A stretch of 64,000 nucleotides of DNA from the NCBI RefSeq assembly GCF_014203735.1, contig NZ_JACHJQ010000003.1, positions 729,326 to 793,325 of the forward strand. Reading direction: 5' to 3'. The notes beneath the pieces were generated by a model. That model made no database searches and was not told the origin of the DNA. It was given only the letters and a program-made list of their open reading frames with translations. The position numbers were made by a program, and so were the translations under genes. This document shows positions 1 to 15,787 of this stretch, one piece after another; position 1 is the first letter of the stretch; each line of letters begins with the position of its first letter. The stretch is from Actinophytocola algeriensis (lineage in GTDB: Bacteria > Actinomycetota > Actinomycetes > Mycobacteriales > Pseudonocardiaceae).

Positions 1-3000
1 CGCGACCGCCTGCCCGAGCGGGTATACCTCGACGTGACGGGCCGGTTGACCGAACGCGGCTCGGGAACCGAGTTCGCGTTCATCGAAGGCGCGTTCGCCT
101 TCTGTCTCCGCTGCCGGGTCTCCTACGAGCAACTGCGCAGCAGCGACTTCGGCAAGCTCGCCTCGCTCTCCGCGGAGGGGCGTAGCTCTGCTGCGTCTGT
201 GATCAGCGCGAGCGTCGTGCGCAGCCTGCGATCGCAGTCCGACCTGCCGCACTCCGCGCGGAAACTGCTCGCGTTCGCCGACAACCGGCAGGACGCGAGT
301 TTGCAGGCCGGGCACTTCAATGACTTCATCCAGGTCAGTCAGCTGCGCGGTGCGCTGTACCGGGCGGTGTCCGTTGCGCCGGACGGGCTGACCCACGAGG
401 TGATCGAACAGAAGGTCACTGACGCGCTGGGACTGTCCATTGCGGACTTCGCGCAGAACAAGGTCGCCCGGTTCAGCCTTGAGCGCCGCGCGTGGGAGGC
501 GCTGCGCCGGGTGGTCGGCTACCGGATCTACCAGGATCTGGAGCGGGGCTGGCGGATCACCATGCCAAACCTCGAACAGACCGGCCTGCTGCGGATCGAC
601 TACACCGACCTGCCGGAGATCGCGGCCGAACAGTCCCTGTGGGAGGACCGTCACCCAGTGCTCCGCGACGACATCGCCGAGCATCGCCGCGAGCTGATGC
701 GCATTCTGCTCGACGAGTTGCGCCGGGTGCTGGCCGTCGAGGTCGACTGTTTCGATCCCATCGGGTTCGAACAGCTCCGCAAACTCAGCGGCCAGCACCT
801 CGACGAACCGTGGGCACTGCCGGAACGGGAGAGCGAACCGAGCACCGGCAAGGCGTTCGCTCGTGCGGGCGGCAAGGGCAGCCGTCGTGACCACCTCTAC
901 CTCAGCGGCTACGGCGCGTACGGTCGCTACCTGTTGCGGTCCACCACGTTTCCCGGAGTCCCGGGCAGGCTTGCCCGGGATGACGCCCAGAAGATGATCG
1001 CGGACATGCTGGGCGTCCTCGCCGAATGTGGCCTGCTCGCGGTCAGCCGGACCAACGAGGCGGACGGTGCACCGGGCTATCAGCTCAAGGCTTCCGCGAT
1101 CATCTGGCGTGCCGGCGACGGGAAGTCCGGTGCCACGGACCCGGTGCGCAAGGAGGTCGCCTCCGAGCACGGGCCGAGGGTCAACCCGTTCTTCCGGCGC
1201 CTGTACTCGGATGTGGCCGAGACGCTCGCCGGCATGCATGCCCGCGAGCACACCGCCCAGGTGTCCAACGAGAACCGGATCAAACGGGAGAACCAGTTCC
1301 GTAGTGGTGAGCTGCCTGTGCTGTTCTGCTCGCCCACCATGGAACTCGGCATCGACATCGCGAGTCTGAACGCCGTCGGGTTGCGTAACGTGCCGCCGAC
1401 ACCGGCCAACTACGCGCAGCGCGCGGGCCGTGCCGGGCGTTCTGGTCAGCCCGCGCTCGTGGTCACGTACTGCGCCACCGGGAATGCCCACGACCAGTAC
1501 TACTTCCGCAACCGGGACCAGATGGTCGGTGGCTCCGTCGCACCGCCCCGGCTGGACCTCACCAACGAAGACCTGCTGCGCTCCCACGTCCACGCCATCT
1601 GGCTCGCCGAGACCGGAGTCCGGCTGGACCGGTCTCTGGCGAAGGTGGTGGGCACGGGTTCCCCCGGTCTGCCGATCGCGACACGGATTCGCCAGGCGAT
1701 CGGCTCCGTGGCCGCACGAGACCGCGCGATACGGCACGCTCGGATAGTCCTGTCCGGCCTCGCCGATCGGTTGGACAGCACCTCGTGGTGGCACCCCGAC
1801 TGGATCGAACGGGTCGTCACGGACGCCGAGCTGGAGTTCGACCGTGCGCTGGAACGCTGGCGTGAACTGTTCCGGGCCGCGGTGCGTGAGCAGGAGCGGC
1901 AGAACAAGATCATTCTCGATCACTCGAGCAGTCCGAAGTCCCGGGACGACGCGACTCGCAAGCGTCGAGAGGCCGAGAACCAGCTGCGTCTGCTCCGGCT
2001 CGACGACAGCGATGAGTACCAGACGGACTTCTACTCGTACCGGTACCTGGCGGCCGAGGGTTTCCTGCCCGGCTACTCGTTTCCTCGGCTGCCGCTGCGG
2101 GCCTACGTGCCGGGAAGGCGGGGGGTCGGCGGCGACGCCGAGTTCATCCAGCGGCCGCGGTTCATCGCCATCAGCGAGTTCGGGCCGGGTGCGCTCGTCT
2201 ATCACGAGGGCGTGCGCTACCAGGTGAACCAGGTGCAGCTCACGCCGGGCGAGGACGGTGGCACCGGGCTGGACACGACGTCCGCGCGCCGGTGCTCGGC
2301 CTGTGGTTACCAGCACGACGTCGAGGTCGGGTCGGATGTCTGCGACTCCTGTGAACAACGGTTGGGCCCGACGATGTATCGGCTGCTGCGCCTGCAGACG
2401 GTGCGTGCGAACCGGCGGGACCGGATCTCCTCGGACGAGGAGGAACGGCGTCGCACCGGGTACGAGCTGATCACCTCGTACCGGTTCAACGACCACGGAG
2501 CCCGGCCCGGCAGGCTCGACGCGGTCGCGAGCACCGCCGGTGAGGCCGTGCTCGACCTGCACTACGGGGACACAGCGACCGTGCGGGTCACCAACCTGGG
2601 CTTGCGGCGGCGGCGGGACCCGCACAGCAATATCGGCTACTGGATCGACGTGCGGAACGGTCGCTGGCTGTCGGAGCGGCAGGCGTTGGCGAACGACGGC
2701 CAGGGCGGCGAGGAGTTGGACGCGGCCGACGAGGTGCCGAAGAAGCAGCAGGTCGTGCCGTACGTGGAGGACAGCCGCAACATCCTGATCACCAGAGTGG
2801 CGGCCGGTCAGGTCGGCGAGGCCGCGGCCCGATCGTTCATGTACGCGCTGGAGCGCGGGATCGAGGCGGAGTTCCAGCTGGAGGACAGCGAGCTGGCGAG
2901 CGAACTGCTGCCGGACGACGAAGACCGCGGCCGGGTGCTGTTCGTGGAGAGCGCCGAGGGCGGTGCGGGTGTGCTGCGGCGTCTCGTGGAGGAGAAGAAC

Positions 3001-3585
3001 GCGTTGCGGCGAGCTGCCCGCCGAGCGTTGGAGATCTGTCACTTCGACCCGGAGACCGGAGCCGACACCGGCGGTGACGTCGACGGGACAGGCGAACGTT
3101 GCGCACGTGCCTGCTACGACTGCCTGCTCTCCTACAGCAACCAGGGCAGCCACCTGCTGATCGACCGGCATCTCGCGAAGGAACTCCTGCTGGCCTGCGC
3201 ACGGTCCACCACCGCCCAACCGGGCGGGCATGATCCGGACGAGGCGTGGGAGGCCGTGTTGGACAAGGTCTCCGGGTACAGGGCTCGGCAGCAGTTCGTG
3301 TACTGGCTGCGGGAGATGGAGTATCGCCGCCCCGACGAGGTCGCCGTCGCGCTGCCGGAGTTCGACGTGGTGGCCGACCTGGTGTACCGGCCCGCGACCG
3401 GTCCGGTCGCGGTGTTCGTGGACGGGCCGGACGACTCGGCCGCGCCGGGGCGTGATGATCTTGCGGAGGAGAACCTGCGGGATGCCGGCTGGTTCGTAAT
3501 ACGGGTGCCCTTCGGAGCGACGTACCCGGAGATCGTTACTCGGAACCCGAGTGTGTTCGGAGTCAGTCGAAGGGGGAATCGGTGA
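1..3585 (+). CDS. DUF1998-family DNA helicase, 3' part (5' end outside window)
   Basis: The frame is open from base 1, so this is the C-terminal ~1194 residues of a larger superfamily 2 helicase; relatives of this type are usually well above 1500 residues. Seen directly: a CLRC zinc-type pair near base 110, the helicase C-terminal motifs SPTMELGIDI (about 1330-1360) and QRAGRAGRSGQ (about 1417-1450), a CSAC...CDSC pair (about 2295-2355) and the DUF1998 signature CARACYDCLLSYSNQ (about 3103-3147). The last ~80 residues (PEFDVVADLVY, VAVFVDGP) resemble a Vsr/DUF559-type nuclease fold. Family knowledge: DUF1998 helicases occur in DISARM (DrmA/DrmB), Druantia (DruE) and MrfA repair. Its stop overlaps the next start (GTGA), so it is co-transcribed with the SNF2 gene. 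Inference: DNA-translocating motor of an antiphage system. The DEAD/DEAH half is not visible. Confidence 0.85.
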   Translation, partial: RDRLPERVYLDVTGRLTERGSGTEFAFIEGAFAFCLRCRVSYEQLRSSDFGKLASLSAEGRSSAASVISASVVRSLRSQSDLPHSARKLLAFADNRQDASLQAGHFNDFIQVSQLRGALYRAVSVAPDGLTHEVIEQKVTDALGLSIADFAQNKVARFSLERRAWEALRRVVGYRIYQDLERGWRITMPNLEQTGLLRIDYTDLPEIAAEQSLWEDRHPVLRDDIAEHRRELMRILLDELRRVLAVEVDCFDPIGFEQLRKLSGQHLDEPWALPERESEPSTGKAFARAGGKGSRRDHLYLSGYGAYGRYLLRSTTFPGVPGRLARDDAQKMIADMLGVLAECGLLAVSRTNEADGAPGYQLKASAIIWRAGDGKSGATDPVRKEVASEHGPRVNPFFRRLYSDVAETLAGMHAREHTAQVSNENRIKRENQFRSGELPVLFCSPTMELGIDIASLNAVGLRNVPPTPANYAQRAGRAGRSGQPALVVTYCATGNAHDQYYFRNRDQMVGGSVAPPRLDLTNEDLLRSHVHAIWLAETGVRLDRSLAKVVGTGSPGLPIATRIRQAIGSVAARDRAIRHARIVLSGLADRLDSTSWWHPDWIERVVTDAELEFDRALERWRELFRAAVREQERQNKIILDHSSSPKSRDDATRKRREAENQLRLLRLDDSDEYQTDFYSYRYLAAEGFLPGYSFPRLPLRAYVPGRRGVGGDAEFIQRPRFIAISEFGPGALVYHEGVRYQVNQVQLTPGEDGGTGLDTTSARRCSACGYQHDVEVGSDVCDSCEQRLGPTMYRLLRLQTVRANRRDRISSDEEERRRTGYELITSYRFNDHGARPGRLDAVASTAGEAVLDLHYGDTATVRVTNLGLRRRRDPHSNIGYWIDVRNGRWLSERQALANDGQGGEELDAADEVPKKQQVVPYVEDSRNILITRVAAGQVGEAAARSFMYALERGIEAEFQLEDSELASELLPDDEDRGRVLFVESAEGGAGVLRRLVEEKNALRRAARRALEICHFDPETGADTGGDVDGTGERCARACYDCLLSYSNQGSHLLIDRHLAKELLLACARSTTAQPGGHDPDEAWEAVLDKVSGYRARQQFVYWLREMEYRRPDEVAVALPEFDVVADLVYRPATGPVAVFVDGPDDSAAPGRDDLAEENLRDAGWFVIRVPFGATYPEIVTRNPSVFGVSRRGNR

Positions 3586-6410
3586 GCACGTTCGCCGTCG
3601 GGTCGTTGGTGCGCGCACGGGGTCGGGACTGGGTGGTGCTTCCCGACTCCGCGGACGACCTGCTGGTGGTCCGACCGCTCGGTGGCCGCGACGACGAGGT
3701 GGCGGGCATCATCACCGGGATCGAGCAGGTCAGCCAGGCGACGTTCGCCGATCCGGATCCGGCGGACGCGGGCAACGCGGTGAGCGCGGGACTGCTCCGC
3801 ACCGCCCTGCGGATCGGCTTCCGGTCCACCGCGGGCCCGTTCCGGTCGATGGCCGGTCTCGCGGTCGAACCGCGGCCCTACCAGCTGGTGCCGCTGCTGA
3901 TGGCGCTGCGTCAGGAGACGGTGCGCATGCTCGTCGCCGACGACGTCGGCATCGGCAAGACCGTCGAGGCCGGACTGATCGCGGCGGAACTGCTGGCGCA
4001 GGGCAGCGCTCGCGGACTCACCGTCCTGTGTGCTCCCGCGCTCGCGGAGCAGTGGCAGGCCGAGTTGGCGAGCAAGTTCCGCATCGACGCGGAGCTGGTG
4101 CTGCCCGGCACGGTGAAGCGGCTGGAGCGCAACCGCCTGGACGACGAGTCGATCTTCGAGCTGCATCCGTACACGATCGTGTCGACGGACTTCATCAAGT
4201 CCACCAGGCACCGCGACGACTTCGTCCGTGCCTGCCCGGACCTGGTGATCGTGGACGAGGCGCACACCTGCGTGGCCGACGGGTCGACGTCGGGTGGGCG
4301 GACGCTGCGTTACGACCTGGTCCGCAGGCTCGCCGAGGACCGAAAACGCCATCTGCTGCTGGTGACCGCGACACCCCACAGCGGCAAGGACGAGGGCTTC
4401 CGCAACCTGATCGCGCTGCTCGACCCGGAGCTGCGTGCCCTGGACCTCGGGTCGTCGAAGGGCCGCGAACGGCTGGCCCGGCACATGGTGCAGCGCCGCC
4501 GGGCGCACATCCGCAAGTTCGTCGAGGACACCCCGTTCCCCGAGGACCGCAAGATCCAGGAACGGAAGTACTACCTCACCGACGACTACGCCAAGCTGTT
4601 CGGCTCGGTCCTGTCCTACGCCAGGGAGACCGTCCGCGACCACACCGGCGGTGCGCTGCGGCAACGCGTCCGGTACTGGTCCGCGCTCGCGCTGCTGCGC
4701 GCGCTGGCCTCCTCGCCGAAGGCCGCCGCCGCGACGTTGCGTACTCGCGCACAGGCGGCGGGTGCGGCGTCGAGCGACGAGGCCGACCGCATCGGCCGTG
4801 CCACCGTGCTGGACCTGGCCGACGACGAGGCCGCGGAGTCGGTGGACGTCACGCCGGGGGCGGACGACATCGCCGAAGGTGGTAGCGCCGAGCGACGCAG
4901 ACTGATGGAGTTCGCGCGCCGCGCCGAGCAGTTGGAAGGCGCGGGCGACGCGAAACTGGCCTGCTTGGACGAGGCCATCCAGGCGTTGCTGAGCGACGGG
5001 TACGACCCGGTCGTGTTCTGTCGCTTCATCGACACCGCCGAGTACGTGGCCGAGCACCTGCGTGGTTCGCTGGGACGCACCGCGTCGGTCGCCGCGGTGA
5101 CCGGGGCGCTCAGTCCACCGGTGCGTGAGAGCACCATCGCCGAGCTGACCGGTCAGCGGGGGCGCCACGTGCTGGTGGCGACCGACTGCCTTTCGGAGGG
5201 TGTGAACCTGCAGGAGCACTTCCAGGCGGTCGTGCACTACGACCTGGCGTGGAACCCGACCCGGCACGAGCAGCGGGAAGGCCGTGTCGACCGGTTCGGG
5301 CAGCCCTTCAAGGAGGTGCGGGCGGTAACGGTCATCGGCGCGGACAACCGGGTCGACGAGATCGTGATGCGGGTGCTGCTGCGCAAGCACAACGAGATCC
5401 GCAAACAGCTCGGGATCAGCGTCCCGGTGCCGGACTCGGCGAACGCGGTGGTCGAGGCGGTGCTGGAGGAACTGTTCGTGGCGGCGCCGGTGGCCGACCA
5501 GCCGATGCTGGCGGGTTTCGAGGACGTGATGGCGACGCACCGCAAGTCGCTGCACGAGGAGTGGGACAGCTACGCCGCCAAGGAGAACGCGGCGCTGACG
5601 AAGTTCGCCCAGTCCGGTATCAAGCCGGACGAGGTGGCCGCCGAACTCGCCGAGGTCCGGGCCAGCCTGGGCGCCGACACCGAGGTCACGGAGTTCGTCC
5701 GGGAGTCCCTGGACGCGCTCGGCGCGTCGATCACCGCGAAGAAAGCCGGGTTCGAGGCGGTGACCACCACTCTGCCGTTGGGACTGCAGGACGCATTGCC
5801 GCCGGGGCACGTCGAGCCGCTGCCGTTCCGCTCGGATCTGCCGGTGCCGCCGAAACACGCACACCTCGACCGCACCGATCCGTCGGTCGCGGCCATCGCC
5901 GGTTACGTGCTGGACAGCGCACTCGACCCACTGACTCCGGGCCCGCGCCCGGCCCGCCGCTGCGGCGTTGTGCGCACCGACACGGTGGCCCGTCGCACCA
6001 CACTGCTGCTCCTGCGGTTCCGCATGCACGTCACGTTGCCCGGGGCTTACGGCACCCGGACGTTGGTCGCGGAGGAGGCGCGGACGGTGGCGTACCGCGG
6101 CCGACCGGGTGAGCCGGACTGGTTGCCACCGGAGGAGGTGACCGCGCTGCTCGCGGCGCAGCCGAGCGGCAACGTGGCGGTCGAGCAGGCCCAGGACGAC
6201 ATCCGGCGCGCGGTCGCCCAGCTGGACGAGCTGCGCACGTCGTTGGACGAACAGGCCGCCGAGGTCGCGGACCAGCTCCGCGAGTCGCACATGCGGGTCC
6301 GGGCGGCGACGCGCCAGGCAGGTGTCACCAGGATCGACGTCCACGCGCACACGCCGGTCGATGTCCTGGGTGTGTACGTGTACCTGCCGGTGCCGGGAGG
6401 TGCCCGATGA
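3582..6410 (+). CDS. SNF2-type helicase, DISARM DrmD-like
   Basis: A 942-residue RapA/SNF2-like ATPase starting at GTG with AAGGGGG upstream and overlapping the previous stop. Motifs seen: DVGIGKT Walker A at about residues 121-127, DEAH at 225-228, TATPH shortly after, and motif VI QREGRVDRFGQ at about 564-574. The C-terminal ~250 residues carry no recognised domain and contain helical, charged stretches (for example near bases 6180-6300). Size and neighbours (DUF1998 helicase before, large adenine methylase after) match DISARM class 1 DrmD. Known: DrmD is an SNF2 helicase needed for that defence system. Inference: this protein remodels or scans foreign DNA with the neighbouring motor. It could also be a general RapA-like protein, but the overlap on both sides argues for a dedicated defence role. 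Confidence 0.85.
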   Translation: MSTFAVGSLVRARGRDWVVLPDSADDLLVVRPLGGRDDEVAGIITGIEQVSQATFADPDPADAGNAVSAGLLRTALRIGFRSTAGPFRSMAGLAVEPRPYQLVPLLMALRQETVRMLVADDVGIGKTVEAGLIAAELLAQGSARGLTVLCAPALAEQWQAELASKFRIDAELVLPGTVKRLERNRLDDESIFELHPYTIVSTDFIKSTRHRDDFVRACPDLVIVDEAHTCVADGSTSGGRTLRYDLVRRLAEDRKRHLLLVTATPHSGKDEGFRNLIALLDPELRALDLGSSKGRERLARHMVQRRRAHIRKFVEDTPFPEDRKIQERKYYLTDDYAKLFGSVLSYARETVRDHTGGALRQRVRYWSALALLRALASSPKAAAATLRTRAQAAGAASSDEADRIGRATVLDLADDEAAESVDVTPGADDIAEGGSAERRRLMEFARRAEQLEGAGDAKLACLDEAIQALLSDGYDPVVFCRFIDTAEYVAEHLRGSLGRTASVAAVTGALSPPVRESTIAELTGQRGRHVLVATDCLSEGVNLQEHFQAVVHYDLAWNPTRHEQREGRVDRFGQPFKEVRAVTVIGADNRVDEIVMRVLLRKHNEIRKQLGISVPVPDSANAVVEAVLEELFVAAPVADQPMLAGFEDVMATHRKSLHEEWDSYAAKENAALTKFAQSGIKPDEVAAELAEVRASLGADTEVTEFVRESLDALGASITAKKAGFEAVTTTLPLGLQDALPPGHVEPLPFRSDLPVPPKHAHLDRTDPSVAAIAGYVLDSALDPLTPGPRPARRCGVVRTDTVARRTTLLLLRFRMHVTLPGAYGTRTLVAEEARTVAYRGRPGEPDWLPPEEVTALLAAQPSGNVAVEQAQDDIRRAVAQLDELRTSLDEQAAEVADQLRESHMRVRAATRQAGVTRIDVHAHTPVDVLGVYVYLPVPGGAR

Positions 6411-9400
6411 GCCGCGCACCGTTCCCGTCGTTGCGGGTCGCAGGTGGGTTGCTGCCCGCCGACCTGTTCGTCCGGGTGATGGACGACGCCGGTCTCGCCG
6501 GCCGCGGTCCGGCCGACTACGGGCTGGGCGCGCGCCGCACGGTCCGTGAGGCGGCGTCGCGGGCGTTCGAGGACTTGTCGAAGGAATGGCGTGCGCTGTC
6601 CCGTGACAAGGTCCGCGGCACCCGCGACTGGCTCCGCGCGGTCTACGGCAGCGACGGCCTCGGCTACGGCCCGCTGGAGGAGCTGCGCGGCGGCCTGACG
6701 GCGGACGACCGGCAGTTCAAGGTCAGCCACCGCTGGCAGCACGTGCCCGTGCACTGGCTGCCCTGGGGCACCGACCTGGACCACCGCACGAAGGGTGTCG
6801 TCGGTGCCGCCGACGCCGCCCCGCAGTCGATGGTGCAGGAACTGCTGAACCGCACCGACGACCACCTGTTCGCGATGGTGTCGAACGGGCAGCGCCTGCG
6901 GCTCCTGCGTGACTCCCGTTCGCTCGCCGGGTCGGCATACGTGGAGTTCGACCTGGAGCTGATCTTCGAAGAGGGCCTGTTCCCGGACTTCCTGCTGCTG
7001 TTCCGGCTGCTGCACGCGACCCGATTCCAGGTCCGTTCCGACGACTCACCGGCGTCGTGCTGGTTGGAGACGTGGCGCACCACGGCCATCCAGCAGGGCG
7101 AACGCGCGCTGGAACGGTTACGGGGTGGTGTCGAGCAGGCGATCAACACGTTGGGCACCGGGTTCGTCCGCCACCCGGCCAACGGCGACCTCAACCGTCG
7201 GCTGGCGACCGGTGAGCTGCGACCCGAGGACTACAAACGGTCGGTGCTGCGGCTGGTGTACCGGCTGCTGTTCTGGTTCGTCGCCGAGGACCGCGGCGTG
7301 CTGCTCGACCCGGAGACAACGCTGGACGTGCGCAAGCGGTACGACCGCTACTTCTCCGCCCGGCGTCTGCGAGACCGCGCGCGTCACGGCAGCACGGACC
7401 ACCACGACGACCTGTGGGAGTCGGTGCGGCTGGTGTTCGTCGGCCTCGGGCTGGAGGAAGGTCGCCCCGAACTGGGCGTGCCGGGCATCGGCGGCATCTT
7501 CGAACGCATCACCCGGGACGGCGACGAGAAGATCGACCCGAGCCGCCCGGACGAGCTGGACGAGCCCCTCGAAGGGATGCGGCTGACCAACGGGGTCCTG
7601 ATCACGGCCGTGCGTCACCTGGCCATCGTGGACAGCGCCGGTCAGCGTCGCCAGGTGGACTTCCTGAACCTGGACTCGGAGGAACTGGGCAGCGTCTACG
7701 AGTCGCTGCTGGAGCTGCACCCCGACTACGACCCGGACGAGCGGGCGTTCACGTTGAAGGCGGCGGCGGGCAACGAACGCAAGACAACGGGCTCGTACTA
7801 CACCCCGTCGTCACTGACGGAGGCGCTGCTGGACAGCGCACTGGACCCGGTCCTTGACGACGCGGTCAGCGGCATCGACTCCGCCACCGAGCAGGTCGCC
7901 GCCCTGCTGAACGTGACGGTGTGCGACCCGGCATGTGGGTCCGGGCACTTCCTGGTGGCCGCCGCCCGCCGCATCGCCCGCCGTGTCGCCCAGCTGCGCA
8001 GCGGCGAGAACGAACCGTCCCCGAACCTGGTCCGCACCGCGATGCGTGAGGTCGTGAGCCGCTGCATCTACGGCGTCGACATCAACGAGACGGCAGCGGA
8101 ACTGGCGAAGGTGTCGCTGTGGCTGGAGTCGGTGGAACCGGGCTTCCCGCTCCCCTTCCTGGACGCCAACATCCGCGTAGGGAACTCGCTGCTCGGCACC
8201 ACACCCGCCCTGATCGAGAAAGGTATTCCAAAGGAGGCCTTTAAGCCTTTGGTCGGTGACGACAGGGATGCTTCTCGGGTCATTGCCAAACGCAACGCCG
8301 AACAGGGCGATGGCATCTTCGACCTGTTCGCATCAGAACCCCCAATTACTAAGAATGTCGCGATCGCCCACAACACCAGGGCGCTGGTACACGCAGAGGC
8401 ACGCAGCCTGGCAGATGTATACGTGCAACGCACGCGATTGCGTGATATCGATGATGAGCGCATGGCGGCCAAGCGTGTCGCCGATGCTTGGTGTGCCGCT
8501 TTTGTTCAGCCTAAGACCCAAGACACCGCGCTGCACGCTGTAGTTCGGTCGACGCTGGACTGGATCGCTGACAACCCGGACACCCTCGAACGTGCCCAGC
8601 TCGCCAATCTGGTTGTAGAACTGGCCAGAGACTACCGGTTCTTCCATTGGCACGTGGAGTTCCCTCACATTTTCACCGTTTCTGAGGACCGGTTGGACGT
8701 GGACGCGACGACCGGTTGGCGCGGAGGCTTCTCATGCGTGCTGGGCAACCCGCCCTGGGAGAATATCGAAATGAAGGAGCAGGAGTTCTTTGCCACGCGC
8801 CGACCGAAGATTGCGGAATCCACGAACGCCTCCAAGCGCAAGCGGGCGATCGACGCGCTGAAGAGCAGTGTCAACGAGCAGGACAAGAAACTGTTCGCTG
8901 ATTTTGAGGAAGCAAAACACTTCATTGACGGAACTAGGCATTTTCTGGCGACTAGTGGCAGATTTCCTCTCACTGCACGCGGAAGGATAAAAACTGACCC
9001 TGTATTCGCGGAAACTGGTCGGACCATTCTCGCTCCACATGCAAGGGTGGGAATGGTGTTACCAACCGGTATTGCGACTGATGCTAACACTCAGTACTTC
9101 TTCAAAGACTTGGTGCTGAGTCGCACTCTTGTGTCAATATACGATTTTGAGAACGAAGAAAAAATCTTTCCAGGCATTACCAATAGGGTACGATTTTGCT
9201 TGTGGACGGCTGCGGGACGCGAATCCAAAATCGAGGAGATTAGTCTCGCTTTTGCCTTGCGTCAGGCGTCTCAGATTAAACTAAGGCGCTACGCGCTGAC
9301 CCCGAATGAGATTACTCTACTTAACTCGAATACTGGAACGTGTCCGGTGTTTGCGCATAAGCGTTCTGCGGGCCTCACGATTGCCATGTATCGACATGTC

Positions 9401-10435
9401 AAGTCTCTGCTATGGCGTGACAGTCCTGAGGAAAATCCTTGGAATATCTCATTCATGCAAGGAACATTCAATATGGCAAGTGATTCGCCGCTGTTCCGTG
9501 ATCGAGACTTCCTGGAGCAGAACGACTGGACGCTGAACGGCAACATTTTTGCGCGTGGCGATGAGCGGATGTTCCCTCTGGTCGAAGCGAAAATGATTCA
9601 CATACTGGATCACCGGTTTAGTACCTACGAGCACGCCACCGATGCTCAGGTAAACAAAGGGACACTTCCGCGAGTGGATGCTGAACGGAAGTTTGATCCG
9701 AATTTTGCAGTAGTACCTCGCTACTGGGTGGCCGAGGGAGAGGCGGACGGTCGACTCGCACGCAAAGGCTGGGATAAGGACTGGCTGCTGGGATGGCGTG
9801 ATATCTGCCGCAGTTCCGACGAGCGGACATGCATTGCAAGTATCGTTCCGCGAACGGCAATCGCTGGAACTTTCAATCTGATGCTTCCAGTTGGAAGAAT
9901 TGCAGGCTTGTACGCGAACCTCACTTCCCTTTGTCTCGACTACATAGTCAGGCAAAAAGTTGCAGGGTCCCATCTGAATCCGGCGTACTTCAAACAGCTT
10001 CCGATATTTGTTCCGAGTTACTACAATGGCAACTGTTTGTGGAGTTCGAATGAGATTCTCCACCAGTGGGTCGGCGTCCGCATTGTAGAGCTTACTTATG
10101 GCAGCTATGACGTGGTCGGCTTCGCGCGTGATCATGGAGATGAGGGGCCACCATTCCGGTGGGATGAGGAGCGGCGGTTCTGGTTGCGGGCCGAGCTGGA
10201 TGCCGCCTACTTCCACCTCTATGGGGTGCCGCGCGACGACGTGGACTACATCATGGACACGTTCCGGGCGTTCAGGAACAACGACCCGGACCGGTTCGCG
10301 CGCACCAAGCAGGCGATCCTCGACATCTACGACGACATGGCCAAGGCCGTCGAGACCGGCGAGCCGTACCAGACCAGGCTCGACCCGCCGCCCGGCCACG
10401 GTCCCCGCCACCCGGCTGAAGGAGAACACGAATGA
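6407..10435 (+). CDS. Large Eco57I/PglX-type adenine-specific DNA methyltransferase
   Basis: A 1342-residue class I methylase; its ATG overlaps the SNF2 stop (ATGA). SAM-binding motif I, CDPACGSGHF, lies at about residues 506-515 and the catalytic NPPW motif at about 780, the order and spacing of gamma-type N6-adenine methylases. The long N-terminal half (1-480) resembles BREX PglX and DISARM DrmMI proteins; the C-terminal third should hold the target recognition domain. Role by family: marks self DNA so that the helicases and nucleases of the operon spare it. Odd feature: base composition falls sharply inside the gene from about 8220 to 10140 (line 9121-9180 is 22/60 G+C by hand count, line 7921-7980 is 47/60), then recovers. 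The reading frame stays open throughout, so this looks like a swapped specificity segment rather than decay. Confidence 0.88.
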   Translation: MSRAPFPSLRVAGGLLPADLFVRVMDDAGLAGRGPADYGLGARRTVREAASRAFEDLSKEWRALSRDKVRGTRDWLRAVYGSDGLGYGPLEELRGGLTADDRQFKVSHRWQHVPVHWLPWGTDLDHRTKGVVGAADAAPQSMVQELLNRTDDHLFAMVSNGQRLRLLRDSRSLAGSAYVEFDLELIFEEGLFPDFLLLFRLLHATRFQVRSDDSPASCWLETWRTTAIQQGERALERLRGGVEQAINTLGTGFVRHPANGDLNRRLATGELRPEDYKRSVLRLVYRLLFWFVAEDRGVLLDPETTLDVRKRYDRYFSARRLRDRARHGSTDHHDDLWESVRLVFVGLGLEEGRPELGVPGIGGIFERITRDGDEKIDPSRPDELDEPLEGMRLTNGVLITAVRHLAIVDSAGQRRQVDFLNLDSEELGSVYESLLELHPDYDPDERAFTLKAAAGNERKTTGSYYTPSSLTEALLDSALDPVLDDAVSGIDSATEQVAALLNVTVCDPACGSGHFLVAAARRIARRVAQLRSGENEPSPNLVRTAMREVVSRCIYGVDINETAAELAKVSLWLESVEPGFPLPFLDANIRVGNSLLGTTPALIEKGIPKEAFKPLVGDDRDASRVIAKRNAEQGDGIFDLFASEPPITKNVAIAHNTRALVHAEARSLADVYVQRTRLRDIDDERMAAKRVADAWCAAFVQPKTQDTALHAVVRSTLDWIADNPDTLERAQLANLVVELARDYRFFHWHVEFPHIFTVSEDRLDVDATTGWRGGFSCVLGNPPWENIEMKEQEFFATRRPKIAESTNASKRKRAIDALKSSVNEQDKKLFADFEEAKHFIDGTRHFLATSGRFPLTARGRIKTDPVFAETGRTILAPHARVGMVLPTGIATDANTQYFFKDLVLSRTLVSIYDFENEEKIFPGITNRVRFCLWTAAGRESKIEEISLAFALRQASQIKLRRYALTPNEITLLNSNTGTCPVFAHKRSAGLTIAMYRHVKSLLWRDSPEENPWNISFMQGTFNMASDSPLFRDRDFLEQNDWTLNGNIFARGDERMFPLVEAKMIHILDHRFSTYEHATDAQVNKGTLPRVDAERKFDPNFAVVPRYWVAEGEADGRLARKGWDKDWLLGWRDICRSSDERTCIASIVPRTAIAGTFNLMLPVGRIAGLYANLTSLCLDYIVRQKVAGSHLNPAYFKQLPIFVPSYYNGNCLWSSNEILHQWVGVRIVELTYGSYDVVGFARDHGDEGPPFRWDEERRFWLRAELDAAYFHLYGVPRDDVDYIMDTFRAFRNNDPDRFARTKQAILDIYDDMAKAVETGEPYQTRLDPPPGHGPRHPAEGEHE

Positions 10436-12531
10436 CCTTCGCCGATCGCAACGCGCTCTACCTGCGAACCGCGATGGAAGTGTTGCGGGACGCGGGCGGA
10501 TCACTGTCTCGGACCGAGGTGGCGGAGCGAGTCGCTGACAGGTTGGGCCTCACCGCCGACGAACGGGCGTCCGACGAACGAGGCCGGGTCAAGTGGCGGG
10601 TCCAGATGGGGTTCCGGACCTCCGAAGCCGCGATGGTCGGGTGGCTGACCAAGGGTGGCGGCTCGTGGACCGTGACCGAGTCAGGCTTGCAGGCGATGCT
10701 GGATTTCCCCGGCACAGAGTTGCTGAGCGAGCTGCGGCGCCTCTACCGAGCCCGAAACCAGACCACGAAGAAGCGCCAGTACCGAGACCCGCGCTGGTCC
10801 ACCGTGCTGAGTGCTCTCGAACACGTAGGACCGGGAAACTGGACCACATACGGCGACCTGGCCGAGCTTGTCGGAATGTCAGGGCAGGCGGTCGGCGGTT
10901 TCATGACCGAGCATCCAACTGCCAGTGGCCACCGCGTCATGACGGTCAACGGCACCATCTCGCCGAACTTCCAGTGGTGGGATCCGGAGCGCACCGACAC
11001 CCCCCGGGAAGTGCTCGAATCCGAAGGCGTCGAGTTCGACGAACGTGGTCGTGCCAGTTCGAGTCAACGGCTCACCGTCGATGATTTCCGTGACCTGCTG
11101 AGCGATCTTCTTCCGCAGCCGACCAACAAACGTGCGTGGCTGGTGCGCGGGTCGTCCGTCGAGGGGCGGGATCTGGTGCCGGTGTGGTTGCGGAAGGAGT
11201 CAGTGTCACTCGCCGCCTCCACGTTGCGGCCCGTCACTCTTCCCGTGACGCGGGCCGAGTTGAAGTCCCTTGTGGACGAGGATTACCAGCACAAGCCCTA
11301 CTCCGCTCGTGAGGCGAAGGTGGCCGAGTTCGATGCGTTCTGCAACCGGATGCGGCCCGGCGACCTCGTGCTGACAACCACCGGCGGCAAGACCTACCTG
11401 GGTCGCGTCACCGGCGAGGCCGAGTACGTCAACTCCGGGGACAAGCGTTCCAACCTGCGCCGCGCCGTGGACTGGCTCAACGACACCCGGCCGGTGCCGT
11501 TCGCGAAACTGCCGGACCCGTTGCCCGCGAAGCTGCACAACCAGTCCGACGTCGTGGACCTCACCGAGAACCTCGCCGCCGTCGAGGCCCTGCTGCGTGA
11601 GCTGGACATCGAGGTCGAGACACCCGCGCCCGCGCCGCAGAAGCCGCTGGAGTTCACGCCGGTCAGCTCCGAGCTGGCCGACGAGCTGATGATCGACCGG
11701 GACTGGCTGCAACGCAGGACCGACCTGCTGTGGCACCGCCGCCAGTTGATCCTCTACGGCCCGCCCGGCACCGGGAAGACGTTCCTCGCCCGCAAGATCG
11801 CCCAGCACCTCGCCGAGCCCAGTGCGGTCAAGCTCGTCCAGTTCCATCCGTCCTACACCTACGAGGACTTCTTCGAGGGTTTCCGGCCGGTGCAGGGGGA
11901 CGACGGGCAGCTCGCGTTCGAGCTGCGGCCCGGGCCGTTCCGGGCGCTGGTCGACGACGCGCGGACACACCCGTCCGACCCGTACATCCTGATCATCGAC
12001 GAGATCAACCGGGCGAACCTCGCCAAGGTGTTCGGTGAGCTGTACTTCCTGCTGGAGTACCGGGACGACTCGATCAGCCTGCTGTACTCCACCGAGGCGG
12101 ACTTCACGCTGCCGAAGAACGTGTTCGTGATCGGCACCATGAACACCACCGACCGCTCCATCGCGCTGGTCGACGCCGCCATGCGGCGCCGGTTCGCGTT
12201 CGTCGAGCTGCACCCGTCGCAACCGCCCACCTCGGGACTGCTGCGTGAGTGGCTGCGCCGACGCGCCGACGAGATCGCGCACCACGCCGACGCGGCGGAC
12301 CTGCTGGACGCGCTCAACCGGGCCATCGACGACCGCGAACTGGCGATCGGCCCCTCCTACCTGATGCACGACTACGTCTACCAGCGACCGGACGCGCTGG
12401 ACGAGGTGTGGGAGACCTCGATCCTGCCGCTGCTGGAGGAACACCACTTCGGCAGCCCGCGCGAGATCCTCGACCGGTACCGCCTCGCCGCGTTGCGCAA
12501 GTCCATCGACACCCGGTCGGACGAGCCGTGA
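10432..12531 (+). CDS. McrB-type AAA+ GTPase with N-terminal ATL and EVE/PUA-like reader domains
   Basis: A 699-residue protein whose ATG overlaps the methylase stop. Order: a winged-helix-like region (about 5-90); a domain at about 120-190 that aligns with alkyltransferase-like proteins (TTYGDLAELVG at 138-148, then GHRVM and NGTIS); an EVE/PUA-like segment with RPGDLVLTTTGGKTYLGRVTG (residues 308-328 in part); and a McrB AAA+ module with GPPGTGKT at 443-450, IIDEIN around 521-526 and GTMNTTDRS near 569. In MGMT enzymes the active site is PCHR and in ATLs usually PWHR; here it is SGHR (H167), so no methyl-acceptor cysteine. Known: McrB forms GTP-driven rings that activate McrC. Inference: the front domains read modified bases. 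McrC is encoded two genes downstream. Confidence 0.88.
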   Translation: MTFADRNALYLRTAMEVLRDAGGSLSRTEVAERVADRLGLTADERASDERGRVKWRVQMGFRTSEAAMVGWLTKGGGSWTVTESGLQAMLDFPGTELLSELRRLYRARNQTTKKRQYRDPRWSTVLSALEHVGPGNWTTYGDLAELVGMSGQAVGGFMTEHPTASGHRVMTVNGTISPNFQWWDPERTDTPREVLESEGVEFDERGRASSSQRLTVDDFRDLLSDLLPQPTNKRAWLVRGSSVEGRDLVPVWLRKESVSLAASTLRPVTLPVTRAELKSLVDEDYQHKPYSAREAKVAEFDAFCNRMRPGDLVLTTTGGKTYLGRVTGEAEYVNSGDKRSNLRRAVDWLNDTRPVPFAKLPDPLPAKLHNQSDVVDLTENLAAVEALLRELDIEVETPAPAPQKPLEFTPVSSELADELMIDRDWLQRRTDLLWHRRQLILYGPPGTGKTFLARKIAQHLAEPSAVKLVQFHPSYTYEDFFEGFRPVQGDDGQLAFELRPGPFRALVDDARTHPSDPYILIIDEINRANLAKVFGELYFLLEYRDDSISLLYSTEADFTLPKNVFVIGTMNTTDRSIALVDAAMRRRFAFVELHPSQPPTSGLLREWLRRRADEIAHHADAADLLDALNRAIDDRELAIGPSYLMHDYVYQRPDALDEVWETSILPLLEEHHFGSPREILDRYRLAALRKSIDTRSDEP

Positions 12532-12580: not shown

Positions 12581-13984
12581 ATGCTGACCCGCATCGAGGT
12601 GGACGGCTTCAAGAACCTGCTGGGGCTGGCGATCGACTTCGGCCCGTTCACCTGCATCGCGGGCGAGAACGGCACCGGCAAGAGCAACGTGTTCGACGCG
12701 ATCCAGTTCCTGAGCCTGCTCGTCGACCGCTCGCTCATCGAAGCCGCCCAGGAGGTCCGGGGTATCCACGGTGAGCGGCTCGGCGACCCGCGCGACCTTT
12801 TCTGGAACGGCCACTCCTGGTCGGAACCCAGGATGCGGTTCGCGGCCGAGATGATCGTGCCCGGCGAGGTCGAGGACGACTTCGGTCGAGCTGCCAAGGC
12901 CACGATCACTTTCCTGCGCTACGAGTTGGTGATCGGCTACGCCGCCCCGAGCGGGCTGGAAAAAGTCGGCAGGCTCGTCCTGCTGGAGGAGAACCTCCGG
13001 CACATCAAGCTCGGCGACGCCCCCGCCCATCTCCGGTTTCCGCACAGCACCGGCAAGTTCCGCAACGCCGTCCTGCACGGCAAGCGCAGCGGAACCGCGT
13101 TCATCTCGACCATTGTCGAGGACGGCCAGCCGATCGTGTCCATTCACCAGGACGGTGGCAGCCGCGGCCAGCCCAAGCGGGCGGCGGCTTCCCGTGCTCC
13201 CGCCACGGTCGTCAGCACCGTGACCAGCAACGACGATCCCACCATCCTCGCCGCCCGGCGCGAGATGCAGTCGTGGCGGCGACTGGCGTTGGAACCGTCC
13301 GCGCTGCGCACCGCGGACCGGTATGTCGATGACCGCATGATGGATGTGAACGGCAGGCACCTGGCGGCCGCGCTGTTCCGGGTCGCCAATCGTGCGGGTT
13401 CCGATCCTGAGGCCGCCTACGCGAGAGTCGCCGGACGTCTGGCGGATCTGGCGGGCATCAACGTCCGGGACCTGCGTATCGACCAGGACGATGTGCGCGA
13501 ACTGCTGACCATCCAGCTGGTCGAGTCCAGCGGCCTGACACTGCCTGCGCGCAGCCTGTCGGAGGGCACGCTGCGGTTCCTGGCGCTGTGCGTGTTGCTG
13601 GAGGATCCGTCCGTCACCGGTCTGATCTGTATGGAGGAGCCGGAGAACGGGATCCATCCGGCCAACATGGACGCGATGGTCCACCTCGTCCGCGACCTCG
13701 CGGTCGACCCGCAGGCGACGCCGGGCGAGGACAACCCGTTCCGCCAGGTCGTGATCAACACCCATTCACCCGCGATCGTGCAACTTGTCGACCCGGGTGA
13801 CCTGCTGTTCGCCGACACCGCCGTCCGCAAGGGTCCGGACGGCAGCACCGCACACGTGCTTCGTCTGCGGCCGATGGCCGACACCTGGCGGGCCCGGGGT
13901 CACTCAGCGGTGACCAGGGCGGACATCCTGCCCTACCTGACCACGCACCCCGGTGCCCAGCTCAGCCTGGGGGACACCGCGTGA
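12581..13984 (+). CDS. AAA_21/OLD-type SMC-like ATPase
   Basis: A 467-residue ABC/SMC-fold ATPase with a clear AGGAGG ribosome site. Seen: Walker A GENGTGKSN at 28-36, ABC-type signature SEGTLRFLAL near 327, Walker B LICMEEPENG around 348-357, and the H-loop NTHSPA at 393-398. There is no TOPRIM domain at its C-terminus, unlike OLD or GajA; instead a separate small DUF4276 gene follows with a GTGA overlap. Known: pairs of such ATPases with a small TOPRIM-type protein (for example AriA-AriB of PARIS) act in phage defence. Inference: ATPase sensor/regulator half of a split OLD-like module lodged between mcrB and mcrC. It could also be a RecF-like accessory to McrBC. Confidence 0.82.
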   Translation: MLTRIEVDGFKNLLGLAIDFGPFTCIAGENGTGKSNVFDAIQFLSLLVDRSLIEAAQEVRGIHGERLGDPRDLFWNGHSWSEPRMRFAAEMIVPGEVEDDFGRAAKATITFLRYELVIGYAAPSGLEKVGRLVLLEENLRHIKLGDAPAHLRFPHSTGKFRNAVLHGKRSGTAFISTIVEDGQPIVSIHQDGGSRGQPKRAAASRAPATVVSTVTSNDDPTILAARREMQSWRRLALEPSALRTADRYVDDRMMDVNGRHLAAALFRVANRAGSDPEAAYARVAGRLADLAGINVRDLRIDQDDVRELLTIQLVESSGLTLPARSLSEGTLRFLALCVLLEDPSVTGLICMEEPENGIHPANMDAMVHLVRDLAVDPQATPGEDNPFRQVVINTHSPAIVQLVDPGDLLFADTAVRKGPDGSTAHVLRLRPMADTWRARGHSAVTRADILPYLTTHPGAQLSLGDTA

Positions 13985-14622
13985 CCATCCGCATCGTGTT
14001 CCTTCGTGAAGGCACCAGCGACAGCGGGATCGTGCCGCACATCGAGGCGATCGCGGCGAACCACGACCTCGACGTGTCAGTCACCGACCCGGAACTGGAC
14101 CGGCTGCCGAAGCCGCCCGGGCTGGCCGTGGCGGCCAAACTGCGGGCGGTGCTGGAGATGGGTGGTGTGTACGACCTGATCGTGGTGCACCGCGACGCCG
14201 ACAACCAGGGTGTCGACGCCCGTGTCGACGAGATCGCCGCGGCCGTCGCCGTAGTGACCGCAGACGTGCCGCACGTTCCGGTCGTACCGGTTCGGATGAC
14301 CGAGGCGTGGCTCCTCACCAGCGAGGACGAGGTGCGCCGGGTCGCGGGGAACCCGACGGGCAGGATGCCGCTGGGCCTGCCGAACCTCGGCGCTCTCGAA
14401 CGGATCGCCGATCCGAAGGAACTGCTCAGGGACGCTCTCGCCACGGCGTCCGGAGTCTCGGGCCGACGACTCGACCAGGTCAGGAAACGGTTCTCCCAGC
14501 ACCGGCGGCAGCTGCTGGAGCGGTTGGACCGGGACGGCCCGGTAGCCCGGTTGCCGTCCTGGCAGCACTTCGTCACCGGAGTCGAAGCCGGGCTGAAGGC
14601 CGCGTGCGATGCCGGTCGTTGA
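13981..14622 (+). CDS. DUF4276-family TOPRIM-like protein
   Basis: A 213-residue protein starting at GTG inside the stop of the ATPase gene. The N-terminus has hydrophobic-strand-REGTSD with acidic E10, and VVHRDAD places D72 and D74 after a second strand; this E...DxD pattern is the TOPRIM metal-binding layout. DUF4276 proteins are commonly encoded beside SMC-type ATPases. No helicase, transmembrane or signal segment is visible. Inference: nuclease or effector partner of the upstream ATPase, by analogy with OLD/PARIS systems. The family assignment is fairly firm, the catalytic role is not proven. It overlaps the mcrC start by 14 bases. Confidence 0.72.
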   Translation: MTIRIVFLREGTSDSGIVPHIEAIAANHDLDVSVTDPELDRLPKPPGLAVAAKLRAVLEMGGVYDLIVVHRDADNQGVDARVDEIAAAVAVVTADVPHVPVVPVRMTEAWLLTSEDEVRRVAGNPTGRMPLGLPNLGALERIADPKELLRDALATASGVSGRRLDQVRKRFSQHRRQLLERLDRDGPVARLPSWQHFVTGVEAGLKAACDAGR

Positions 14623-15787
14623 ACTGGACGAGCTGGGCAGTTCCGCGCACTCGCTCACCACCGAACAGGGGCAACGGCTCGCCCGGTCGGGGTTGGTGTC
14701 CGCGGCCCCGTCCGCGCTCGTGCCGGGGCAGTGGGACGTCGCGGCCCGCGGCAAGGTGGGTGTTGCCCGGGTTGGGGATGTCGACCTGTGGATCCGGCCG
14801 AAGCTCGACATCGCGCGGCTCCTGTTCCTCGTCGGCTACGCGGTCGACCCGAAGGGGTGGCGTGACGACGAGGTCGAGCTGGCGACCGGTGACGGGCTGG
14901 TGCCCGCGGTCGCGAACGCGCTGTGGCGGCAGACCGAACGCGCGTTGCGCCAGGGTCTGCTTCAGGGCTACCGCGAGGTCGAGGAAACCTCGTATGTCCT
15001 GCGTGGCCGGTTGCGGGAGGCCGACCAGCTCCGCAGGCACCACGGGCGGGTGATCCCGATGGAACTGCGGCACGACGACTTCACCGTGGACGTGGCAGAG
15101 AACCAGATCCTCCTGGCCGCCGTCACCCGCATGCTCACGGTGCCCAGGGTGGACGACCAGTCGCGGCAGCGGCTCACCGCACTGCGTGTTCGCCTCGCCG
15201 ACGTGACCTCCCTGATTCGTGGCGCGCGGCTGCCCGCGTGGCGGCCGAACCGGCTCAACGCCCGATACCACAGCGCTCTGCGGCTCGCGGAGATCGTGTG
15301 GCAGGCCACCTCACCCGAGCACGCGCCCGGCACAGTCACCGCGACCGGGTTCCTGTTCGACCTCGCCAGGGTGTTCGAGGACTTCGTCACGGTCGGCCTC
15401 GCCGAAGCGCTGCCCACCCACGCGGCGGGCACCGCGCATCGTCAGTATCCGTGCTCACTCGACGAAGCGGCGGCCGTGGGCATGAAACCCGACCTGGTCT
15501 GGCGGGTCGGCGGTAGCCCGGCGGCCGTGGTGGACGCGAAGTACAAGCAGGAGAAGCCGGAGGGCTACCCGAACGCCGACCTGTACCAGCTGCTGGCCTA
15601 CTGCACCGCACTCGGACTTCGGCGCGGCCATCTCGTCTACGCCAAGGGAAACGGCCTGCCCGCGCGGCACGTCGTGCGGCATGCCGGGGTGGAGATCGTC
15701 TGCCACGCGCTGGATCTGACACTGCGGCCGGCGGAGCTGCTGGGCCTCATCGACCGACTGGCAAGGGACCTCGCCGGGAACAAGTAA
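14609..15787 (+). CDS. mcrC: McrC-type nuclease subunit
   Basis: A 392-residue McrC homologue. The N-terminal half binds the McrB ring in the family; the C-terminal half has a PD-(D/E)xK nuclease core with KPD (D295) followed by VVDAKYK (D309, K311), which are the expected metal and lysine residues. The ATG overlaps the DUF4276 gene by 14 bases. Known: McrB-McrC cleaves DNA carrying modified bases, using GTP. Odd feature: in ordinary loci mcrC follows mcrB directly, but here two genes separate them. The catalytic residues are intact, so the nuclease should be active. Confidence 0.88.
   Translation: MPVVELDELGSSAHSLTTEQGQRLARSGLVSAAPSALVPGQWDVAARGKVGVARVGDVDLWIRPKLDIARLLFLVGYAVDPKGWRDDEVELATGDGLVPAVANALWRQTERALRQGLLQGYREVEETSYVLRGRLREADQLRRHHGRVIPMELRHDDFTVDVAENQILLAAVTRMLTVPRVDDQSRQRLTALRVRLADVTSLIRGARLPAWRPNRLNARYHSALRLAEIVWQATSPEHAPGTVTATGFLFDLARVFEDFVTVGLAEALPTHAAGTAHRQYPCSLDEAAAVGMKPDLVWRVGGSPAAVVDAKYKQEKPEGYPNADLYQLLAYCTALGLRRGHLVYAKGNGLPARHVVRHAGVEIVCHALDLTLRPAELLGLIDRLARDLAGNK

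Follow-up and report, generated by a model that had tools for sequence, protein, structure and literature searches.

The McrB protein encoded in the stretch of Actinophytocola algeriensis DNA analyzed here (64,000 nucleotides, hereafter the window) carries, in front of its AAA+ GTPase, an Mrr_N winged helix, a domain derived from alkyltransferase-like proteins (ATLs) and a YTH/EVE-like domain. The first two form a block that is exchanged among relatives and is under purifying selection within one cassette type. With moderate confidence, we propose that this McrB supplies both GTPase and recognition to a McrBC complex attached to an ARMADA type I-like operon, with the winged helix and the ATL-derived domain acting as a replaceable recognition cassette.

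The mcrB gene (10432..12531, + strand; 699 aa) has a start codon that overlaps the stop codon of the methyltransferase gene before it. The winged helix at residues 11-88 (10462..10695, +; PF14338), overlooked in the original prediction, passes the cut-off of 29.5 bits when the N-terminal fragment is scanned (31.2) and falls slightly short of it on the whole protein (28.7). Mrr_N winged helices are usually DNA-binding. Then come the ATL-derived domain (residues 116-226; 10777..11109, +), the YTH/EVE-like domain (residues 228-395; 11113..11616, +) and the AAA+ GTPase (residues 415-690; 11674..12501, +). This is the domain order that the original prediction had correctly given: an ATL without its cysteine, an EVE-like domain and the AAA+ module of McrB. 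The AAA+ region has a Walker A motif (GPPGTGKT, residues 443-450) and an NxxD signature (MNTTDRS), and its top match in a PDB search is E. coli McrB (4.9e-46). An mcrC gene lies nearby (14609..15787, +; PF10117, E 3.1e-52) and encodes a D...DAK nuclease motif. As far as the sequence tells, the motor motifs of McrB and the nuclease motif of McrC are intact.

The assignment of the second domain to the ATL fold is supported by several comparisons. PF01035 matches residues 124-200 (E 5.6e-9, 36.2 bits for a cut-off of 27), and the motifs on which the original prediction was based are in place: TTYGDLAELVG at residues 138-148 (10843-10875), SGHRV at residues 165-169, where Gly166 occupies the cysteine position, and NGTIS at residues 173-177. 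When a model of residues 1-228 (pLDDT 92.4) was compared with the PDB using Foldseek, S. pombe Atl1 (3gva) came first (E 4.9e-3, probability 1.00, TM 0.56 by target), followed by the V. parahaemolyticus ATL 2kif and then AGTs; this comparison gave no match at E 0.001 or better. Atl1 was also the top match when a profile of 20 sequences was searched against PDB sequences with hmmsearch (E 7.6e-5), and aligning 20 McrB modules with 21 AGT/ATL rows in hhalign gave a probability of 98.3 (E 1.2e-14). The McrB domain has the C-terminal fold of AGTs and lacks the cysteine, and structure prediction bears out the ATL fold that had been proposed for it.

The middle domain is predicted to be PUA-superfamily-like, of a YTH/EVE-like kind. 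A model of residues 226-412 (pLDDT 87.2) gave 24 PDB matches in Foldseek at E <= 0.001, of which 22 are human YTH domains and two are VcaM4I, an EVE-HNH enzyme. YTHDF2 ranked first (E 7.5e-6) and VcaM4I reached 1.1e-4, these matches having a large rmsd of 6-9 A and a TM by query of 0.39-0.48. A Pfam scan of the same residues returned no family at E <= 5, EVE (PF01878) included; hhalign against nine EVE domains was weak (probability 42, with 0.1 for the control against AGT/ATL), and a profile of the domain found nothing credible among PDB sequences (best E 0.21). The EVE/PUA-like domain announced by the original prediction from the segment RPGDLVLTTTGG (residues 308-319; 11353-11388), which does precede the AAA+ module, thus holds as a PUA-superfamily fold whose YTH or EVE subclass is unsettled, but not as a member of the EVE Pfam family. 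Five residues (W236, W252, D311, G324 and W348) are invariant in an alignment of 44 sequences, for which 43 of 56 listed relatives were taken and 13 dropped as near-repeats by eye; W252 would lie in the pocket for a flipped, modified base. A PUA-type reader of modified bases ahead of the AAA+ module has likewise been described, in the parts consulted, for the McrB of T. gammatolerans, whose YTH domain senses 6mA (PMC7897488), and for EVE-McrB (PMC7641849). The window McrB differs from them by the additional Mrr_N-ATL block in front of the reader. The YTH/EVE-like domain (window 11107-11667) also matches the N-terminal part of the PADLOC candidate family PDC-S02 (E 1.6e-10), and because of this profile match the two may have a reader type in common.

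Three genes precede mcrB. The first encodes a YprA/DruE-like helicase with an MrfA zinc-binding domain (1..3585, +), whose frame begins upstream of the window, with its first Met about 1.6 kb before it; a Vsr-type nuclease was looked for at its C-terminus, where the last 151 residues have no Pfam match. The second is an SNF2-type helicase (3582..6410, +) that PADLOC models identify as DrmD/BrxHII-like, the best being a DpdE-labelled model (E 5.9e-303), ahead of DrmD (5.3e-83) and BrxHI/HII (3.5e-68). The third is a PglX/DrmMI-like adenine methyltransferase (6407..10435, +; PF07669 E 8.5e-16, DrmMI 7.1e-68) with intact DPACGSG and NPPW motifs. This order of a YprA-like helicase, a BrxHII-like helicase and a PglX-like methyltransferase is the one given for ARMADA type I in part of a preprint (PMC12458937), and in the window McrBC comes after it; passages of another paper associate a DISARM-like system with canonical McrBC (PMC11090510). 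An adenine methyltransferase gene directly upstream of mcrB is unusual for type IV restriction. Among 20 loci with an ATL-McrB (L008-L024, L027, L052 and L063), some of them cut by contig ends, all three upstream genes were found in 10, part of them in four (L010, L018, L027 and L052) and none in six, a gene being scored as absent when BLASTP with the window proteins gave no match above 60 bits in a flank of 10 kb or less. McrC was found in all 20.

Comparison of these operons reveals a jump in identity near residue 228 of McrB. Between the window and L009, identity is 92% in the AAA+ part, 84% in the YTH-like domain, 88% in the DrmD-like helicase and 84% in McrC, and falls to 40% in the winged helix and 32% in the ATL-derived domain. 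The pair L011 and L014 behaves in the same way, with 91%, 86%, 85% and 86% for the AAA+ part, the YTH-like domain, the DrmD-like helicase and McrC, and 42% and 24% for the winged helix and the ATL. Across 12 ATL-McrB operons (66 pairs, which are not independent), the rank correlation of identity with that of the AAA+ part is 0.96 for the YTH-like domain, 0.67 for the winged helix and 0.14 for the ATL. AU tests showed conflict in both directions: two clades taken from the C-terminal tree are rejected by residues 1-226 (p 3.5e-7 and 1.9e-4), and the N-terminal clade is rejected by the C-terminal part (p 3.7e-10). In these tests the clades were named after the data had been seen, the winged helix and the ATL were treated as one block, and 17 of 22 rows were used (L023, L024, L027, L052 and L063 having been dropped before the trees). 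Within the cassette type of the window, dN/dS is 0.07-0.12 for the ATL and 0.04-0.09 for the AAA+ part. An N-terminal block that is exchanged, and maintained in between, is what is expected of a recognition module.

Relatives with other N-termini exist as well. A genome scan recovered 67 relatives; in 21 the match starts before residue 100, and in the other 46 no earlier than residue 179. These counts are lower bounds biased to close relatives, since the search used exact peptide patterns. In two relatives (L028 and L067), Mrr_N stands directly before the YTH-like domain and leaves no room for an ATL. Another 37 (36 from the genome scan and L003 from the genome of the window itself; L003 and L025-L071) cluster by a different N-terminus, which precedes the YTH-like or the AAA+ part. 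In a Pfam scan of three such N-termini (L025, L033 and L055) nothing exceeded a cut-off, and this region is possibly another, unnamed recognition module.

In the mechanism that we propose, the cassette of winged helix and ATL-derived domain would bring the McrBC complex to its target, by a route other than flipping with an arginine finger, and a flipped, modified base would more likely be read by the YTH/EVE-like domain behind it. GTP-driven translocation of the AAA+ ring on DNA and cleavage by McrC would follow. We infer the first two steps, and take the last two by analogy from the McrBC enzymes that have been studied. The occurrence of the same ATL subfamily in GmrSD, a family of modification-dependent enzymes, and the existence of relatives without an ATL or with a different N-terminus argue for this explanation. 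Several observations weigh against it: taken by itself, the winged helix tracks the AAA+ part far more than the ATL does (0.67 against 0.14), the clades were chosen post hoc, and the YTH/EVE-like fold matches come with a large rmsd. Should specificity indeed lie in the cassette, type IV restriction would gain ATL-derived domains as one more reader family, and the swaps found in nature (L011 and L014, the window and L009) would map specificity to a single block of about 228 residues.

The ATL modules of McrB and GmrSD form one subfamily. The genome of the window has seven PF01035 matches: three with the cysteine motif, one W-type ATL, two McrB and one GmrSD-type protein whose ATL module lies towards the C-terminal side. 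Among 397 genomes sampled from the order, 52 have a PF01035 match at E <= 1e-7, for a total of 58 matches, 30 of which were made into loci; the 29 of these loci that were examined comprise 19 GmrSD-like proteins, five McrB and five small stand-alone proteins. In one locus (L019) an ATL-McrB and an ATL-GmrSD are about 4 kb apart. A tree of 83 modules, built from few columns and mostly unsupported in its inner order, separates, across a 100/99 branch, 58 restriction-type modules (26 GmrSD, 24 McrB and eight small or free) from the 25 other AGT and W-type ATL rows. Three comparison proteins without cysteine (L088, L090 and L094) fall within the restriction-ATL branch. In GmrSD the enzyme is a different one and the module sits on the C-terminal side; YTH/EVE-like and AAA+ domains were not found in the GmrSD of L004 and L019.

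An arginine at the finger position is found in 1/24 ATL-McrB and 2/26 GmrSD modules, against 28/28 comparison AGT/ATL proteins, and the flipping tyrosine in 9/24, 25/26 and 28/28 respectively; the cysteine is absent from all McrB (0/24) and GmrSD (0/26) modules. These counts are descriptions rather than independent events, because they come from related rows and from comparison proteins (20 with cysteine and eight without) picked by similarity. They leave out L129-L131, judged repeats of L017, L018 and L020, as well as L079-L082, repeats of rows from the window's own genome, and among the 26 GmrSD rows L004 and L019 were checked with Pfam, the others, including the 151-aa frame L084, being classed by their flanking sequence. 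It is a tentative proposal, which we regard as possible but not probable, that this restriction-specific ATL subfamily, mostly devoid of the arginine finger when fused and common to McrB and GmrSD, reads a target other than O6-alkylguanine, for instance a hypermodified phage base, by a new binding mode. It would then be a class of readers beside SRA, EVE, YTH and the winged helix.

Part of this picture is already in print. PF01035 was reported in 2015 in GmrSD homologues, mainly from Streptomyces (PMC4619093, in part), so that there is a precedent for an ATL-type domain of this subfamily in fusion with a modification-dependent actinobacterial restriction enzyme, and likewise for the association of ARMADA-like genes with McrBC. 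PMC11090510 lists Mrr_N among the domains by which McrB homologues were sought, and its main text does not contain the terms 'methylguanine', 'alkyl' or 'MGMT'; the passages on ARMADA and DISARM-like systems in that paper and in PMC12458937 likewise make no mention of an ATL domain in McrB. The original prediction had remarked that no well-described McrB with this pairing was known. That remark stands for the pairing of McrB with an ATL, on which our searches of literature listings and of main-text passages found no paper; it does not extend to type IV restriction in general.

The evidence on what the cassette binds is divided: the acidic helix points to protein, and the winged helix and the occurrence in GmrSD to DNA. 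In the strongest alternative, which we hold to be possible but rather improbable, the cassette is a protein-binding module, either a sensor of a phage protein or a docking site for the ARMADA helicases, and the YTH/EVE-like domain alone contacts DNA. Recognition helices average a charge of -1.25 in the 24 McrB modules, compared with +1.00 in GmrSD, +1.50 in comparison proteins without cysteine and +2.55 in those with it, and the whole McrB module averages -4.6 (-6 for the window module and -1 for its helix). An acidic helix fits protein binding as well as or better than the cassette-reader explanation, and rapid exchange would also fit an arms race with a protein. On the other hand, the helix of GmrSD modules from the same subfamily is mildly positive and the tyrosine is kept in nearly all of them (25/26), an Mrr_N winged helix of a usually DNA-binding type precedes the ATL, and docking to the upstream proteins is at odds with the six of 20 ATL-McrB loci that lack the three genes in the fetched flank.

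It is unlikely, in our view, that McrBC instead supplies the nuclease for a restriction-modification system blocked by methylation, in which the cassette and the adjacent methyltransferase recognize the same site and self methylation protects. Such an arrangement would follow a LlaJI-like logic. The overlap of the methyltransferase gene with the start of mcrB would suit it, as would the greater variability of the methyltransferase in its C-terminal half (62% identity between the window and L009, against 90% for the N-terminal half). However, coupling of the cassette to that half was looked for and rejected: over the 66 non-independent pairs, ATL identity correlates at 0.26 with the C-terminal half and 0.27 with the N-terminal half, and the winged helix, at 0.66 and 0.71, has no special link either. 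In L011 and L014, moreover, the methyltransferase C-terminal halves are 77% identical and the ATLs 24%, and six of the 20 loci have no methyltransferase gene in the flank.

The original prediction was that the ATL domain flips and senses O6-alkylguanine or a similar base, with help from an EVE domain for modified cytosine. For base flipping, AGTs and ATLs alike rely on an arginine finger and a tyrosine; ATLs flip and hold the base with these and with pocket residues, and Atl1 grips it through W56 and R69 (sections of PMC10779285). The McrB domain has the fold of Atl1 and bacterial ATLs, no cysteine and the HR motif, and it keeps the tyrosine (Y140); Arg and Tyr are both retained in five other small proteins, stand-alone members of the restriction-ATL branch (5/5). 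In place of the arginine finger, the McrB domain nonetheless has Gln152, its Cys/Trp position is taken by Gly166, and Asn179 is aligned with R69 of Atl1, in a loop where the alignment is less certain, and the finger arginine is all but lost from the ATL-McrB modules (1/24). Fusion to a restriction GTPase and an acidic recognition helix further set it apart from Atl1. With the finger, Cys/Trp and R69 positions changed and the helix acidic on average, canonical flipping of O6-alkylguanine by this domain appears unlikely from its sequence, and as the main reading of the protein we reject alkylguanine sensing as improbable. It follows that PF01035 alone does not justify calling such proteins alkylguanine sensors, since the fused modules sampled here lack most of the residues with which ATLs sense alkylguanine.

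A vestigial ATL in decay, or one that merely serves as a spacer, is very hard to credit: the catalytic and most flipping residues are lost and Mrr_N relatives do without an ATL (L028 and L067), but the dN/dS values reject a vestigial domain, the fold is predicted at high confidence, and the module is present in two unrelated type IV enzymes.

Between mcrB and mcrC (window 12581-14622) lie an AAA ATPase (PADLOC HEC-01A, E 1.9e-105) and a DUF4276-like gene (HEC-01B), which seem to form a defence pair nested within mcrBC. Among the 67 loci only L010 has the same pair (94% and 85% identity), and in L009 mcrC immediately follows mcrB. A UvrD/GajB-like helicase (window 15799-17901) is found immediately 3' of mcrC, as in L009, L010, L012 and L013. 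ARMADA type II carries a RelE-GajB fusion (preprint PMC12458937, in part); a RelE-like N-terminus, suspected in the UvrD gene on that account, was discarded, its first 110 residues having no Pfam match.

A second ATL-McrB from the same genome (L113/L002, contig C2) is 86% identical to the window McrB. It lies near a contig end, without ARMADA-like genes, and its mcrC matches the window McrC over residues 1-208 only, in one frame. In a plasmid search, 336 records match P0001, none of them with one place covering 80% of it. The small stand-alone restriction-type ATLs (L153-L157 and L158) come from one genus, keep the arginine finger and the tyrosine, and have an alanine in place of the cysteine; by eye, a RecQ-like helicase frame is visible around L158. 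Finally, in a 231-aa protein of L088 (1465-2157, - strand) a weak helix-turn-helix match precedes an ATL that keeps the arginine finger and has a proline in place of the cysteine.
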